Shown here one piece after another: positions 5,304-48,998 of a DNA stretch of 64,000 nt (its first letter is position 1; every line of letters starts with the position of its first letter). The stretch spans positions 62,001 to 126,000 of the forward strand of contig LNEU01000033.1 of assembly GCA_001464355.1 (NCBI GenBank), in the 5' to 3' direction. A program made the position numbers and the translations under genes. The notes under the pieces were generated by a model that searched no databases, had not been told where the DNA came from, and saw only the letters and a program-made list of their open reading frames with translations. Origin of the DNA: Burkholderiales bacterium Ga0077544. GTDB taxonomy: Bacteria; Pseudomonadota; Gammaproteobacteria; Burkholderiales; Burkholderiaceae_D.

Positions 5304-6221
5304 ATGGATACCGACCTGAGCGCACTGGAAACCGTCGTCGTCCCGCGCACGCGCGACCTCGGCGACAATTTTGAAGTACGTCGCGCCTTGCCGACGACGC
5401 AAAAACGCATGGTCGGCCCTTTCGTGTTTCTGGACCAAATGGGTCCGCATGCGTTTATCGATGGCCGCGGGCTGGATGTACGGCCGCATCCACACATAGG
5501 ACTCGCCACCGTCACGTATTTATACGATGGCGAAATCGAACATCGCGATAGCGTAGGTTCGATTCAAACAATCAAACCGGGCGCCGTAAACTGGATGACA
5601 GCCGGCAGCGGCATCGTCCATTCGGAACGTACAGGCGCGGCATTGCGCGCCAAGGGTTCATCGCTGTACGGTTTGCAGTGCTGGGTCGCGCTACCAAAGA
5701 AATACGAAGAAATAGATCCCGCCTTCCAACATACTGGCGCCGATCAATTACCGATTATTGAAGGCGATGGCGCGACTGCAAAAATTATTGCCGGCAGTTT
5801 TTTCGGTAAAAAATCGCCGGTCGCTACCTTGTCCGATCTGTTTTATGTAGACGTGCAATTGCAAGCGGGTGCACGACTCGATATCCCGGCCGAATATCCG
5901 GAGCAGGCAATGTATGTGATCGAAGGCCGTCTTGATCTGGGACGCGATGGCGTGTTCAATGCAGGACAGTTACTGGTACTGAAAGCAAATACTGCTGTCA
6001 CATTGCGCGGCGTCGGGCCGGGCCTTACCAAAGTGATGCTGCTGGGTGGCGAACCTATGGATGGCTCGCGTTATCTGATGTGGAATTTTGTTTCCAGCTC
6101 CGTAGATAGACTGGAGCAAGCCAGAGAAGATTGGAAAGAACGGCGCTTTGCCGATGTGCCAGGCGAAACCGAATTCATCCCTATGCCGGACATTCCCGGC
6201 ACGCCAGTCGGTTATCCCTGA
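5304..6221 (+). CDS. Pirin-family cupin protein
   Basis: Protein of 305 residues with the two-cupin pirin architecture. The four metal ligands of the N-terminal cupin are visible: the two histidines of RPHPHIGLATVTYL and the His and Glu of SGIVHSE. The conserved LYGLQCWVALP stretch follows, and the C-terminal cupin contains DIPAEYPEQAMYVIEGRL. Bacterial pirins bind iron; some (YhhW) oxidise quercetin, others modulate metabolic enzymes, so the substrate is open. Only a weak purine-rich ribosome site precedes the ATG at 5304. It lies 72 bp downstream of the OsmC gene and may share its transcript. Confidence 0.88.
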   Translation: MDTDLSALETVVVPRTRDLGDNFEVRRALPTTQKRMVGPFVFLDQMGPHAFIDGRGLDVRPHPHIGLATVTYLYDGEIEHRDSVGSIQTIKPGAVNWMTAGSGIVHSERTGAALRAKGSSLYGLQCWVALPKKYEEIDPAFQHTGADQLPIIEGDGATAKIIAGSFFGKKSPVATLSDLFYVDVQLQAGARLDIPAEYPEQAMYVIEGRLDLGRDGVFNAGQLLVLKANTAVTLRGVGPGLTKVMLLGGEPMDGSRYLMWNFVSSSVDRLEQAREDWKERRFADVPGETEFIPMPDIPGTPVGYP

Positions 6222-6266
6222 TCAGCAACCGTTGCAAAACCACCAGCAAACAAGACTGGCACGGTT

Positions 6267-45062: not shown

Positions 45063-45341
45063 TTACTTCTTCATTTCATCTTTAGACATAGCATCTTTAC
45101 CCATGCTGTCCTTCTTCATGCCGTCTTTTGCCATGTGATCTTTTTTCATCGCATCCTTCGACATGCTGTCTTTTTTCATTTCATCTTTTTTCATGCCGTC
45201 CTTGGCCATGTGATCTTTTTTCATTGCATCTTTCGACATGCTGTCTTTCGCCATGCCGTCTTTTTTCATTTCATCCATTGCAAAAGCAGCGCTGGACATC
45301 AACAGGCAAGCGGAGAGAATTGTGGTAGTGATTGTTTTCAT
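45063..45341 (-). CDS. mrpX: Periplasmic methionine-rich MxKDx-repeat peptide (MrpX-like)
   Basis: Protein of 92 residues with a signal peptide (ILSACLLMSSAAFA, 21 residues). The mature 71 residues consist of 13 pentapeptides M-[KSAG]-K-D-x plus a partial one, giving 15 methionines. It belongs to the pentapeptide MXKDX family. In Azospira the equivalent MrpX is a periplasmic sink that is oxidised by hypochlorite and reduced again by the YedY1/YedZ1 methionine sulfoxide reductase. Here it lies 88 bp downstream of yedY1 on the same strand, in the same regulon-like block as sigF-nrsF. The lysine-aspartate pairs might also bind metal. Confidence 0.88.
   Translation of the reverse strand: MKTITTTILSACLLMSSAAFAMDEMKKDGMAKDSMSKDAMKKDHMAKDGMKKDEMKKDSMSKDAMKKDHMAKDGMKKDSMGKDAMSKDEMKK
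45066..45269 (-). repeat. 15-bp coding repeats with a 75-bp higher-order duplication
   Basis: The mrpX repeats are 15 bp each. Residues 30-54 and 55-79 (45180-45254 and 45105-45179) are near-copies of a 25-residue block, showing recent expansion by 75-bp duplication. Confidence 0.8.
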
Positions 45342-45377
45342 GATGATTTTCCTTTGATTAAATTAAAAAATAACTGC

Positions 45378-45386
45378 GGGGGGGGG
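45378..45386. repeat. Nine-G homopolymer before mrpX
   Basis: Nine consecutive G on the plus strand (C on the mrpX sense strand), 37 bp upstream of the mrpX start. Tracts of this length are prone to slippage. On the minus strand the tract directly follows GTAAT, a partial SigF-type -35. Confidence 0.6.
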
Positions 45387-45429
45387 ATTACTACTCTTGA
45401 AACTTCAGGGCAGCTGCATTGCATATAGC

Positions 45430-46203
45430 TCAACTGCCGCCGAACCAGTTGTACCCCTGGTCTTCCCAGTAACCGCCGGGGTAGGTATTTGTGACGAACA
45501 TCGCCTGTATGTGTTTCGGATTTTTGTAGCCGAGCTTGGTTGGCATGCGCAACTTCATCGGGTAGCCATATTTCGGTGGCAATTCTTCACCGTCGTACGT
45601 CAGCGCCATCAAGGTTTGCGGATGCAGTGCAGTTGCCATATCGATGCTGGTGTAATAGTCGTCGAAGCATTTGAAACCGATATACTTCGCACTCAGGTCC
45701 GCGCCTATGCGTTTGAGAAAATGCGAGAACGGCACACCACCCCATTTGCCGATCGCACTCCAGCCTTCGACGCAGATATGGCGCGTGACTTGGTCGGTCT
45801 GCGGCAGATTGCGCAGTTGCGCCAGCGACCACGGCTTCTTGTCCATCACCAGCCCGCTCAGTTCCAGTCGCCACGCATTGCCGTCAACTTCCTTCACTTC
45901 GTTTTCGCCGTAAAAGGCATTGAAGGGAAACGGCCGCGTGATCATCGACTCTGGATAAGTCGGTGCGAGTCGATTCGGATCAAACAAAGCACCTTGTACC
46001 TTGTCATTGAACTGCGACACCTTCATCAAGGCGGCTTCAACACTACTGTTGTCGCTGATCGAGCATCCGGTCAGCAAAGACAAGCCGCCCAATGTCAGAC
46101 TGCGCTGCAAAAATGCGCGGCGCGATGGCTGGCTGATATTGCGTATCGCATCATTCAGCATCGCGACGCTATCGCCCGGCATTACAATTTTCTTCTTGAT
46201 CAT
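45430..46203 (-). CDS. yedY1: YedY-type molybdopterin oxidoreductase (MsrP-like)
   Basis: Sulfite-oxidase-fold molybdoenzyme of 257 residues, in the group of periplasmic methionine sulfoxide reductases. A twin-arginine signal (SRRAFLQRSLTLGGLSLLTG, also containing GC) shows folded export through Tat. The molybdenum-binding cysteine is in RHICVEGWSAIGKWGGVP, and GYPMKLRMPTKLGYKNPKHI is the family C-terminal signature. It is shorter than E. coli MsrP (334) but close to the YedY1 group. It lies 25 bp after the cytochrome b gene, its electron donor. Confidence 0.88.
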   Translation of the reverse strand: MIKKKIVMPGDSVAMLNDAIRNISQPSRRAFLQRSLTLGGLSLLTGCSISDNSSVEAALMKVSQFNDKVQGALFDPNRLAPTYPESMITRPFPFNAFYGENEVKEVDGNAWRLELSGLVMDKKPWSLAQLRNLPQTDQVTRHICVEGWSAIGKWGGVPFSHFLKRIGADLSAKYIGFKCFDDYYTSIDMATALHPQTLMALTYDGEELPPKYGYPMKLRMPTKLGYKNPKHIQAMFVTNTYPGGYWEDQGYNWFGGS

Positions 46204-46228
46204 GATGCTTATCCTTTGCGTTGCTGTA

Positions 46229-46828
46229 TTAACGTCCGCGTATCATCGTCAGCAAGGTGCGCGGCACCAGCGCTACCATCACCAGATGCACAGCGACAAA
46301 TCCGACCAGTGCAGCCATCGTAAAGAAATGTACGCGCCGCGCCGCTTCATAGCCGCCCATCAGTTCACGCAATAAGGGAAACTGCACCGACTTCCACAAC
46401 ACCAGTCCGGACAACACAATCAACACGATATCGACCATGACGAACAGATAGGCCACGCGTTGCACCGTGTTGTACTTGCGTGGATCAGCGTGCGCCAGCT
46501 TGCCTTTGAATGCCGCTGCCATGTCTTGCACAAATGCGCGTGGCGACAAGGGGAAGAACTGCCTGCGCAAACGTCCAGAGAAAAAATTGATCAGCAAGTA
46601 AGCGATGCCATTAATCAGCAATAACCACATCGCGAAGAAGTGCCACTGCAAGGCACCGCCCAGCCAACCGCCCAGCGTCAGATTCGCTGGAATCGTGAAT
46701 GAAAAAAATGGTGCGGCGTTGTAGATGCGCCAGCCGCTGGTGACCAGCAGCAGCACCGCGAGGGCATTGATCCAGTGCGTGGCGCGCAACCAGCGCGGAT
46801 GAATAATGGAATTTTTATCTGTCTGCAT
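46229..46828 (-). CDS. yedZ1: YedZ1-type cytochrome b (electron donor to YedY1)
   Basis: Cytochrome b561-like protein of 199 residues with four helices. Likely heme-ligand histidines are in IIHPRWLRATHWINALAVLLL, LQWHFFAMWLLLI and VHFFTMAALVGFVAVHLVMV. It would pass electrons from quinol to the periplasmic molybdoenzyme. The ATG at 46828 overlaps the stop of the DUF1223 gene by one base (TGATG); an open frame continues upstream but has no membrane start. This is the b561 type, distinct from E. coli MsrQ/YedZ. Confidence 0.87.
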   Translation of the reverse strand: MQTDKNSIIHPRWLRATHWINALAVLLLVTSGWRIYNAAPFFSFTIPANLTLGGWLGGALQWHFFAMWLLLINGIAYLLINFFSGRLRRQFFPLSPRAFVQDMAAAFKGKLAHADPRKYNTVQRVAYLFVMVDIVLIVLSGLVLWKSVQFPLLRELMGGYEAARRVHFFTMAALVGFVAVHLVMVALVPRTLLTMIRGR

Positions 46829-47631
46829 CACAAGCCTTTCGACTGCTTGCACTGCGCAGTGCTGACTGCCTGCAGCACATTGCCGCTGGCTTGATCCTGC
46901 ACAAAAGCCACCGCTTGCAGTTGGTCGCGTTTCCATCCGGCTGGAATATTCACGTCCTGCTGCAGGCGGCCACTGCCTTGCGCCAGAGGTACAGGACCGA
47001 ACCACAGCCGCACAGTATCGTCATGTGTCAGCGTGACGCCGCTGTTTTCACCGCGCAGTACGCGTGAAGTCAGTGCACTTTCACTGATGGCCAGATACAG
47101 TGCGCCATTGGTTTTGGCATCGTGTGCGACCACATCGGCGCTCACCGTGATTCTGTTATCTGCCAAAGGGTTGGATTTCAATGTGATCGTCAACGGTGCA
47201 GCTTGCGCATTGATCTGGCGTATCTGTTTCGGCAAATCGTTTTGCCAGCCGCGCAGTTCCGTACCGTTGACAAAGAACTGCGGCGTGTAAACCACACGAT
47301 TTTTGCGATTCGCCAGCAATTGCCTCTGGCGGGCATCAAAAGCCTTTTGTGCAAAGACATCCTGCCAACCTATCGCATCCCAGTAACTGACATGCAAGGC
47401 CAAAGGCACGATCACGCCGTTGGCATCGCTTTGTTGTCGCAAACGGCTCAATTGTTTATCCGCCGGAGGACAGCTGGAACAACCCTCGCTGGTGTAGAGT
47501 TCGACCAGCGCCGCAGTTGTCGCGCCGCTTTTGACTTCGCAGGCATTACCGGCATACGATGACGGCGCGATGAAAAATGCACAGCTTGCGGCGGTCATGG
47601 CAAAGGGTTTTATATATGCAGTTGATTTCAT
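46828..47631 (-). CDS. DUF1223 thioredoxin-like periplasmic protein
   Basis: Protein of 267 residues with a signal peptide (AFFIAPSSYAG end). The N-terminal half is thioredoxin-like with a CSSCPPADKQLSRL motif after VELYTSEG, and later VVYTPQFFVNGTELRGW containing a cis-proline-like VYTPQ. The C-terminal half (LTITLKSNPLADNRITVSAD) is a beta-domain. DUF1223 has no known enzymatic role. It is the first gene of the operon with yedZ1 and yedY1 and follows a SigF-type promoter, so it may take part in periplasmic thiol or methionine repair; that is inference. Confidence 0.85.
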   Translation of the reverse strand: MKSTAYIKPFAMTAASCAFFIAPSSYAGNACEVKSGATTAALVELYTSEGCSSCPPADKQLSRLRQQSDANGVIVPLALHVSYWDAIGWQDVFAQKAFDARQRQLLANRKNRVVYTPQFFVNGTELRGWQNDLPKQIRQINAQAAPLTITLKSNPLADNRITVSADVVAHDAKTNGALYLAISESALTSRVLRGENSGVTLTHDDTVRLWFGPVPLAQGSGRLQQDVNIPAGWKRDQLQAVAFVQDQASGNVLQAVSTAQCKQSKGL

Positions 47632-47667
47632 GTGGCGAGCGATTTCAGCAAGTGATGTACAAGGTAA

Positions 47668-47693
47668 TTCGCAGCAGCTTGAAATTTGGTTAC
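47668..47693 (-). promoter_or_regulatory. SigF-type ECF promoter
   Basis: On the minus strand GTAACC (47693-47688) and CGAA (47671-47668) are separated by exactly 16 bp. This equals the SigF promoter pattern GTAACC-N16-CGAA reported for Caulobacter as I recall it. It lies 37 bp before the DUF1223 start, giving a leader of about 30 bases. It is divergent from the sigF-nrsF pair. Confidence 0.75.
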
Positions 47694-47760
47694 AGGAAAA
47701 GTGAAAATAATTTCAGCATCAAGAAAATTTATTTTGTAAACGGTGTCACCGAAAGCCTGA

Positions 47761-48360
47761 ATGCAACGAATACCCAATAGAGACGAGCCAAATGACAATG
47801 TGGGCAACGCACGCAATCAGCTGATTGAAGTGCGGCTGCATGCGCTACTGCTGCAAGGTCTGACTGGCGATGAAGCGGCATATCGTGATTTTTTGCAGGC
47901 AACAGCGACGCATTTGCGTGCCTTCCTGCGCCGCCGATTAAGTCGCTGGCCGGATGAAGTGGAAGATTTGCTACAGGAATCGTTGCTGGCGATTCATAAC
48001 CAGCGCATGACGTATGATCCGAGCGCACCGGTAACGGCGTGGCTGTATGCAATAGCAAGATACAAGCTGATCGATTGGCTGCGTCGCCATGCCAGGCGCG
48101 AGATGCAAAACGATGTACTGGATGACGAAAATGAATTGTTTTCCACTGCTGACGCCGATGCCCATGAGGCACAGCGGGATCTGGGGAAATTACTGGAATT
48201 GCTGCCTGAGCAGCAACGCGCTGCCATCATGCATACCAAGGTCGATGGCTGGTCGGTGCGCGACACGGCGGTAGCGTTGAATATCTCGGAGGCATCCGTG
48301 AAGGTCGCCGTGCATCGCGGCTTGAAGGTATTGGCAGAAAAATTACGGGGTAAATCATGA
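47761..48360 (+). CDS. sigF: SigF-type ECF sigma factor
   Basis: ECF sigma factor of up to 199 residues. Region 2 is [43 protein letters not shown] and [21 protein letters not shown]; region 4 is [23 protein letters not shown] and [18 protein letters not shown]. The downstream partner is an NrsF-type anti-sigma, which defines the SigF/NrsF group responding to hypochlorite or heavy metals. The ATG at 47761 may not be the real start: a SigF-like promoter overlaps it, in which case GTG at 47800 would be used. The stop overlaps nrsF by four bases. Confidence 0.9.
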
Positions 48361-48998
48361 AAACAGATGAATTGATCAACATGCTGGCCAGCGGGCCCGA
48401 TGTTGCCGCGCCGAAGATGCCGGTGCGACGCTTCCTTATGCTGGTCGCACTAGGCATATTGGCAAGCACCGTCATCATGTTGACGACGCTGGGTCTGCGC
48501 CCGAACATGGCTGAATTTGTGATATTGCCCGCGTTCTGGATCAAGATGGCATTTGTCATCGCACTTGCGGGTATCGGCTGGATGACCGTTATGCGTCTTG
48601 CATCGCCCGGCGTCCGTACCGCCATTTTGCCGCTATTGATTGCGGCGCCTGTTGTGCTGATATGGATAGTGGCTGCGTCGGCCTTAATGAATGCTGCGCC
48701 GCAAGAACGTGCTGCGCTTTTTTGGGGTGACACCTGGCACTATTGCTCGTCGCTGATCGCCATCCTGTCATTGCCGATTTTTGCCGCGATCCTGAAGGTG
48801 GTGCGCAATCTGGCACCCACGCGCTTGCGGCTGGCCGGGGCTGGTGCAGGTTTCGCGGCTGGCGCGATCGCGACCTTGGTCTATTCATTCCATTGTCCGG
48901 AAATCGCGGCACCCTTCATAGGCTTCTGGTATGTGCTGGGCATACTGGTGCCGACCGGCATGGGTGCGCTGATCGGGCCACGCATTTTGCGCTGGTGA
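48357..48998 (+). CDS. nrsF: NrsF-type (DUF1109) anti-sigma factor
   Basis: Membrane anti-sigma of 213 residues with six helices after a short cytoplasmic N-terminus ([19 protein letters not shown]). DUF1109 stretches are [42 protein letters not shown]-like [21 protein letters not shown] split by loops, and [23 protein letters not shown]. Cysteines in YCSSLIAIL and FHCPEIAAP may be the redox sensor. NrsF proteins hold SigF at the membrane until oxidant or metal stress. The start overlaps sigF (ATGA). Confidence 0.88.

Follow-up and report, generated by a model that had tools for sequence, protein, structure and literature searches.

Whether a DUF1223 gene belongs to the stress response encoded around it is the question raised by a six-gene locus at positions 45063 to 48998 of a 64,000-nucleotide stretch (the window) of Burkholderiales bacterium Ga0077544 (contig LNEU01000033.1, positions 62,001 to 126,000). 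The hypochlorite response of Azospira suillum, which the neighbouring sigF, nrsF, yedZ, yedY and mrpX genes call to mind, was reportedly described by Melnyk et al. in 2015. It is likely that the present locus encodes a SigF/NrsF response to envelope oxidation in which DUF1223 forms the periplasmic cysteine arm of the regulon. What is new here is evidence, drawn from sequence comparison, that ties DUF1223 to the SigF/NrsF promoter, loci and clade. A widespread protein of unassigned function would thus be placed in a regulon and given partners and a small set of candidate substrates, with a bearing on how the envelope handles oxidised cysteines under hypochlorite and on how SigF/NrsF is shut off.

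All six genes that a preliminary description had named were recovered at the place and in the orientation it gave, each scoring above the cut-off of its family. On the minus strand, DUF1223 (46828..47631; PF06764, 173.1 bits against a cut-off of 30.7, with a CXXCPP motif) is the promoter-proximal gene and is followed by a yedZ1-type gene for a 199-residue cytochrome b561 (Ni_hydr_CYTB; 46229..46828; PF01292, 93.2 bits, cut-off 30.1), a yedY1-type gene for a 257-residue molybdopterin enzyme with SRRAFLQ, LTGC and RHICVEGW (45430..46203; PF00174, 102.9 bits, cut-off 24) and mrpX, which encodes a putatively exported, methionine-rich MXKDX repeat peptide of 92 residues (45063..45341; TIGR02953 penta_MxKDx, 115.8 bits, cut-off 41). 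The gaps are short or the genes overlap, one base being common, as read by eye, to the DUF1223 stop and the yedZ start in TGATG (the yedZ start was placed at 46828 and a longer open reading frame (ORF) from 47005 was set aside), and the four genes look like one operon. Divergent from them on the plus strand are sigF, for an ECF (extracytoplasmic function) sigma factor (ORF as listed 47761..48360; NF009188, 285.7 bits, cut-off 250; sigma-70 region 2, 43.8 bits, cut-off 24; region 4_2, 52.2 bits, cut-off 25.7), and nrsF, for a DUF1109 anti-sigma factor with Cys130 and Cys180 (48357..48998; PF06532, 209.7 bits, cut-off 26.8); their ORFs share 4 bases, in agreement with the overlap described earlier.

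Directly upstream of DUF1223, a minus-strand ECF16/SigF promoter, TGTAACC-N16-CGAAT (47667..47694, read from 47694 to 47667), ends 36 bp before the start codon. It matches the ECF16 consensus tGTAACc-N16-CGAA (PMC3420878) and resembles the BcrS sites of Brucella (PMC8315932); these and the other papers are cited from their available portions. Since a match in the window alone could be due to chance, the case for this promoter is one of conservation. SigF accompanied by one or more of DUF1223, YedY and MrpX was present in 41 loci (window included). The motif fell inside the 520 bp surrounding the start of sigF in 39 of them and just 5' of DUF1223 and mrpX in the remaining two, L090 and L142. 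Elsewhere in 466 kb the motif occurred at three sites, those of L090 and L142 plus one in L133, and the reversed pattern, used as a control, was found 0 times inside the 520 bp and once outside. A second site, TGTCAC-N17-CGAAT (47744..47771, plus strand, one mismatch), faces sigF, is kept in relatives and is probably an autoregulatory promoter; 37 of the 42 loci with an effector gene (the above 41 plus L049) had such a site (at most one mismatch, 17-base spacer from TGTAAC), a count made by hand from the site list with no shuffle control. The window site overlaps the listed sigF start, and because its likely -10 element (47767-47771) falls inside the listed ORF, translation of sigF may begin at the GTG at 47800; for ecfF of Bradyrhizobium a distal start with a shorter product has likewise been proposed (PMC3420878).

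The linkage itself recurs. Of 245 Burkholderiaceae genomes, 70 held NrsF, 86 held DUF1223 and 39 held both (source genome included), and the two genes lay less than 5 kb apart in 29 of these 39. By gene, 30 of 88 DUF1223 matches were linked to NrsF at this distance, every one on the opposite strand. Around NrsF matches in Burkholderiaceae genomes other than the source, 75 stretches were retrieved. All six genes were present in 25 of them, and the six-gene set is therefore more than a chance arrangement; these 25 include L094, with a DUF1223 fragment only, and L098 and L140, whose genes are differently ordered and whose yedY is divergent. Four further stretches held mrpX only, five held DUF1223 with fewer partners, and 34 lacked every effector of the set (26 with SigF and NrsF, five with SigF only, two with NrsF only and one with nothing). 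Outside the family, a 249-genome sample of the phylum had DUF1223 in 58 genomes and NrsF in 42 (38 above the cut-off), within a few kilobases of each other in five as judged by eye (source genome included). The family of G526 (149 genomes) had DUF1223 in 123 and NrsF in 89, with at least 15 genomes, counted by eye, holding both within 7 kb, and that of G522 (119 genomes) had them in 80 and 71, with three linked.

The promoter follows this linkage. Among sigF/nrsF-linked genes, the ECF16-type motif was found within 330 bp upstream of the DUF1223 match in 31 of 31 from betaproteobacteria and in 14 of 21 from elsewhere. Among unlinked genes it preceded 0 of 29 from Burkholderiaceae (the best-scoring 29 of 58 unlinked matches) and 4 of 66 from another class, and in none of the four groups did the reversed pattern occur. 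Proximity to NrsF, and not the motif, had been the criterion for calling genes linked, although the betaproteobacterial figure is not independent of the 39 of 41 above, because the upstream regions of the divergent DUF1223 and sigF genes coincide. Genes away from sigF yet with a motif of their own are the stronger cases, as in L251, where sigF, yedZ-yedY and DUF1223-mrpX are each preceded by a motif, three in all. The 21 linked genes from elsewhere comprise 19 from the other class (presumably Alphaproteobacteria), one on a Sphingomonas plasmid (L155) and one on a Paraburkholderia plasmid (L156). Of the four unlinked genes with a motif, L226, L230 and L234 show a full GTAACC site and are not adjoined by a methionine-rich gene; these three could belong to the regulon in trans or be chance matches. 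L045-L048 (the same as loci L084, L085, L089 and L147) were excluded from the promoter, tree and motif counts, the contig-end copy L114 was left out of the motif test, L154 had no gene match, and L258, whose DUF1223 has an in-frame stop, was left out of the motif test and of the larger tree below; the unlinked set excludes L235 and L246, these being the linked genes of G526 and G795.

In a 61-sequence tree of DUF1223, a branch with 100/100 support had every one of the 30 linked sequences from betaproteobacteria on the same side. A quick tree of 146 rows, made with no bootstrap, required at least seven changes of the label "linked", four of them forced by well-supported branches; at least four forced changes imply several gains or losses of linkage. 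Given a conserved promoter directly upstream and an association that recurs outside the genus and the class, the membership of DUF1223 in the regulon, as its additional first gene, is well supported, as the preliminary description had supposed. The same description had regarded its part in the response as undescribed. For the link to SigF this stands, as no literature joining DUF1223 with SigF/NrsF was found in open text, with the limit that subscription papers, the Azospira paper included, may note it; for the protein it does not, as published phenotypes exist for the homologue SrlA (PMC9561847).

The wider locus is supported, by sequence comparison, as one of the SigF/NrsF-YedYZ-MrpX hypochlorite-response kind, as had been proposed, because family content, gene order, invariant NrsF cysteines and an ECF16 promoter all fit: a sigma factor gene overlaps that of an NrsF with two cysteines, and an MXKDX peptide and a Tat-type (twin-arginine translocation) YedY with its cytochrome are encoded nearby. 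In Azospira suillum, SigF/NrsF-YedY1Z1-MrpX is a hypochlorite response of which MrpX and YedYZ are the methionine arm (PMC5748585, PMC4623255); the sigma/anti-sigma pair, the methionine-rich peptide and YedYZ are common to both, whereas DUF1223 as first gene is not mentioned for Azospira in the available portions of these papers. The HOCl-induced BcrS/AbcS-BcrXQP system of Brucella has an ECF16 sigma factor, a DUF1109 anti-sigma factor, an MXKDX peptide, an MsrPQ-like pair and a GTAACC...GCGAA promoter (PMC8315932). The EcfF/OsrA system of Bradyrhizobium is alike in its ECF16 promoter, an anti-sigma factor with two key cysteines, methionine sulfoxide reductases and a periplasmic thioredoxin, but its enzymes are of the MsrA/B type instead of YedYZ and its thioredoxin, Bll1026, is not called DUF1223 in the portion available; a suggested role of this thioredoxin and of a DsbD-like protein of the regulon is to feed electrons to the sulfoxide reductase (PMC3420878). 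Bufferin (MNIO) loci share the sigma/anti-sigma pair (PMC12452194, PMC3511200), and three of those seen here (L155, L174 and L175) include DUF1223; they differ from the window in their MNIO/DUF2282 cargo and show no MrpX or YedYZ match.

The DUF1223 protein had been described as thioredoxin-like with a CSSCPP motif, and C51-S-S-C54-P-P did align with the CXXCPP of 2axo_A (Atu2684; E 2e-17), a sequence match in keeping with the assignment of the family to the thioredoxin clan (PMC3091736). The fold assignment was not based on structure models of our own: a single-sequence model was useless (mean pLDDT, predicted local distance difference test, 37.3), and a six-row model was weak (mean pLDDT 62.3), with Foldseek matches that were mostly local beta-sandwich, including Omp28, and with thioredoxin not among the 50 matches listed for this weak model. 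C51 and C54 were present in 146 of 146 aligned sequences. A second cysteine pair, C31 and C261, occurred in 30 of 30 linked betaproteobacterial sequences, 14 of 29 unlinked betaproteobacterial ones and 0 of 21 linked ones from elsewhere, and was absent as a pair otherwise; because both cysteines co-occur or vanish together, with one exception, a C31-C261 disulfide is likely. As a marker of the SigF-linked form the pair was rejected, on the last two of these counts.

SrlA of Sinorhizobium meliloti is 58% identical to Atu2684 (PDB 2AXO) (PMC9561847) and, through it, would be a DUF1223 homologue. SrlA and Atu2684 resemble the window protein in signal peptide, CXXC motif and, as predicted for the window protein, thioredoxin fold and oxidative-stress role, and differ in being tied to CenK-CenR control, with no SigF, MrpX or YedYZ reported in the portions available (PMC9561847, PMC3091736). 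Deletion of srlA causes sensitivity to salt on plates, to H2O2 and to cumene hydroperoxide, and SrlA represses its own promoter, a repression weakened by C61S in the CXXC motif (PMC9561847). In NrsF, Cys130 and Cys180 were both kept in 90 of 90 aligned sequences (only those above 150 bits were aligned, with L045-L048 counted twice over); in its homologue OsrA, binding depends on Cys129 and the response to H2O2 on Cys179 (PMC3420878).

The response that we infer from these data, including regulation by SigF in vivo, the inducer, the reducing direction and the clients, would run as follows. Oxidative, hypochlorite-type damage of the cell envelope would be the trigger; NrsF would retain SigF at the membrane until oxidation, sensed via the NrsF cysteines, reaches the periplasmic face of NrsF, and freed SigF would then fire the back-to-back promoters of sigF-nrsF and of the DUF1223-yedZ-yedY-mrpX operon. 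MrpX would be spent as a methionine sink, and YedYZ would reduce its methionine sulfoxide with quinol electrons, both steps being known in relatives. DUF1223 would act as a SigF-induced periplasmic oxidoreductase of thioredoxin fold whose CXXC reduces oxidised periplasmic thiols, the NrsF cysteine pair plausibly among them. General oxidised thiols, NrsF and MrpX are the candidate clients at the sequence level.

Several observations weigh against a DUF1223 cysteine arm of the SigF/NrsF response. Many DUF1223 genes are unlinked to NrsF; yedZ-yedY-mrpX stands without DUF1223 in seven of the 75 NrsF stretches, where DUF1223 is evidently dispensable, and also in Caballeronia and Microvirga plasmid loci. 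The adjacent operon of Brucella, as described in the available portion, has three genes and no DUF1223 (PMC8315932), and the sigma-F-dependent list of Caulobacter, as available (PMC3511200), is without DUF1223, though the genome holds the family. The SrlA promoter depends on CenK-CenR, not SigF, and C61S SrlA still complements the salt defect, so that the CXXC is not needed for everything (PMC9561847). Within the window alone, the promoter pattern gave one match against 0.20 expected, with 17 shuffles showing at least one, and allowing one mismatch gave four against 1.74, with 13 shuffles as high; genome-wide there was no enrichment (seven sites against nine for the reversed pattern), the ORFs near these sites gave no lead, and the pattern was rejected as a finder of the regulon. 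The seven loci that lack DUF1223 would also suit a gene that merely rides on the promoter of its neighbours and has no role in the response, but the motif counts of linked and unlinked genes and the forced label changes on the unbootstrapped 146-row tree make this very improbable. A different doubt concerns the inducer, which could be a metal or another envelope oxidative stress within a broader ECF16 response, not hypochlorite: SigF of Caulobacter responds to chromium and cadmium, with peroxides not inducing the genes tested (PMC3511200), and EcfF/OsrA of Bradyrhizobium responds to H2O2 (PMC3420878). As the window is of the MXKDX-YedYZ type that is tied to hypochlorite in Azospira and Brucella (PMC8315932, PMC5748585, PMC4623255), we regard such an inducer as rather unlikely.

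A direct action on MrpX, by cysteine-based recycling or repair beside or instead of YedYZ, would account for eight loci in which DUF1223 stands by an exported methionine-rich peptide while the fetched stretch lacks an intact yedZY (L049, L102, L176, L177, L256, L257, L259 and L263). Among them, L049 of Duganella callida keeps intact DUF1223 and mrpX with only remnants of yedZ and yedY between them (5612-6226). These loci represent about five lineages (genera g244, g286 and g366 and two betaproteobacteria, the sources of L049 and L102), however, and the absence of yedZY refers to the fetched stretch, as yedYZ or msrAB elsewhere in the genomes was not searched. In L155, L174 and L175, DUF1223 also accompanies an MNIO gene where MrpX and YedYZ gave no match, and in L086 it has neither MrpX nor YedYZ beside it; no homology to sulfoxide reductases was returned by Pfam, NCBIfam or the searches that yielded 2axo_A; an action on MrpX is thus decidedly improbable. 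In Streptomyces, the sigma-R/RsrA/thioredoxin loop is the counterpart of another scheme, a periplasmic redox loop in which DUF1223 re-reduces the two NrsF cysteines, re-arms the anti-sigma factor and so serves as an off-switch as well as a cysteine-repair arm beside MrpX/YedYZ. What DUF1223 loci of the MrpX, YedYZ and MNIO types have in common is SigF/NrsF, but this is partly built in, as the loci were fetched by sigF-nrsF linkage. Both NrsF cysteines are invariant, but just as invariant in loci without DUF1223, and no co-variation in support of NrsF reduction by DUF1223 was found. The requirement of OsrA Cys179 for the response (PMC3420878) and the CXXC-dependent autorepression by SrlA (PMC9561847) fit such a loop, although the latter belongs to another regulatory system. 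We put forward the loop as the boldest reading, tentative and rather unlikely, and keep the general reduction of periplasmic thiols by a SigF-induced DUF1223 as the preferred reading.

Other DUF1223 loci differ in architecture. DUF1223 accompanies yedZ-yedY, with mrpX present or not, in L249-L253, L255 and L260-L262; stands by a methionine-rich peptide, with no yedZY in the fetched stretch, in L176, L177, L256, L257, L259 and L263; and has no other match of the set in L248 and L254. A mutual exclusion of DUF1223 and yedZY was considered and rejected, as 25 stretches have both. In L251, L253, L255 and L260 the peptides beside DUF1223 have five-residue M-S-S/T-G-A repeats instead of MXKDX and are low-scoring or missed by the family model. 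One genome, G292, has two sigF-nrsF loci, one with DUF1223 alone (L086) and one with yedZ-yedY-mrpX alone (L087). SigF/NrsF loci with DUF1223 placed 3' of an MNIO (PF05114) gene include L168, L174 and L175 (genomes G601 and G607); a term search of the main text of a published MNIO cluster survey returned no mention of DUF1223 (PMC12452194). On the Paraburkholderia plasmid PPGU16_p2 (L156, 149-3021), DUF1223 is immediately followed by a gene for a DsbD-domain disulfide reductase, a few kilobases from sigF-nrsF, and this protein is a possible electron donor for DUF1223. The neighbours of unlinked DUF1223 genes were tried as a functional clue and set aside: 11 of many were typed in Burkholderiaceae, among them a glutamyl-type tRNA synthetase, a LytTR regulator, a histidine kinase, a chemotaxis receptor, an amidase and a porin, with no evident redox partner.

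The remaining observations concern the individual proteins of the locus and its relatives. The source genome (3.25 Mb, 34 contigs) has a single DUF1223 gene, whose nearest relative is in the Oxalobacteraceae assembly UBA4003 (96% identity), followed by Herminiimonas species (65-67%). The 15 methionines earlier described for the MxKDx repeat are those beyond AFA, which we take as the probable end of a signal peptide judged by eye; the full MrpX carries 17, with 13 M.KD. units. Stricter models were not reached: the window NrsF scored 139.1 against a cut-off of 300 for the NCBIfam equivalog NF042994, YedY scored 81.7 bits against 207 for the NCBIfam MsrP equivalog, and no MsrQ model appeared in the NCBIfam matches of YedZ at E <= 0.001, PF01292 being its sole Pfam match. 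The twin-arginine YedY also has a lipobox-like LTGC. With a motif of this kind in 29 of the 34 YedY sequences inspected, enzymes of this group are possibly Tat lipoproteins. The closest named plasmid relatives of the window YedY/YedZ are from Rahnella (68.9%) and Burkholderia contaminans (67.3%). On a Rahnella sikkimica plasmid (L264, 2009-6127), a divergent histidine kinase and response regulator replace sigF-nrsF beside yedZ-yedY-MXKDX. On an E. coli plasmid (L267, NZ_CP069461.1, 1203-8590), the sole Escherichia record examined, two IS26 transposase genes flank a two-component pair and genes for a cytochrome b, a methionine-rich peptide and a YedY about 60% identical to that of the window; by gene content, this is an MrpX-YedYZ set under another regulator.

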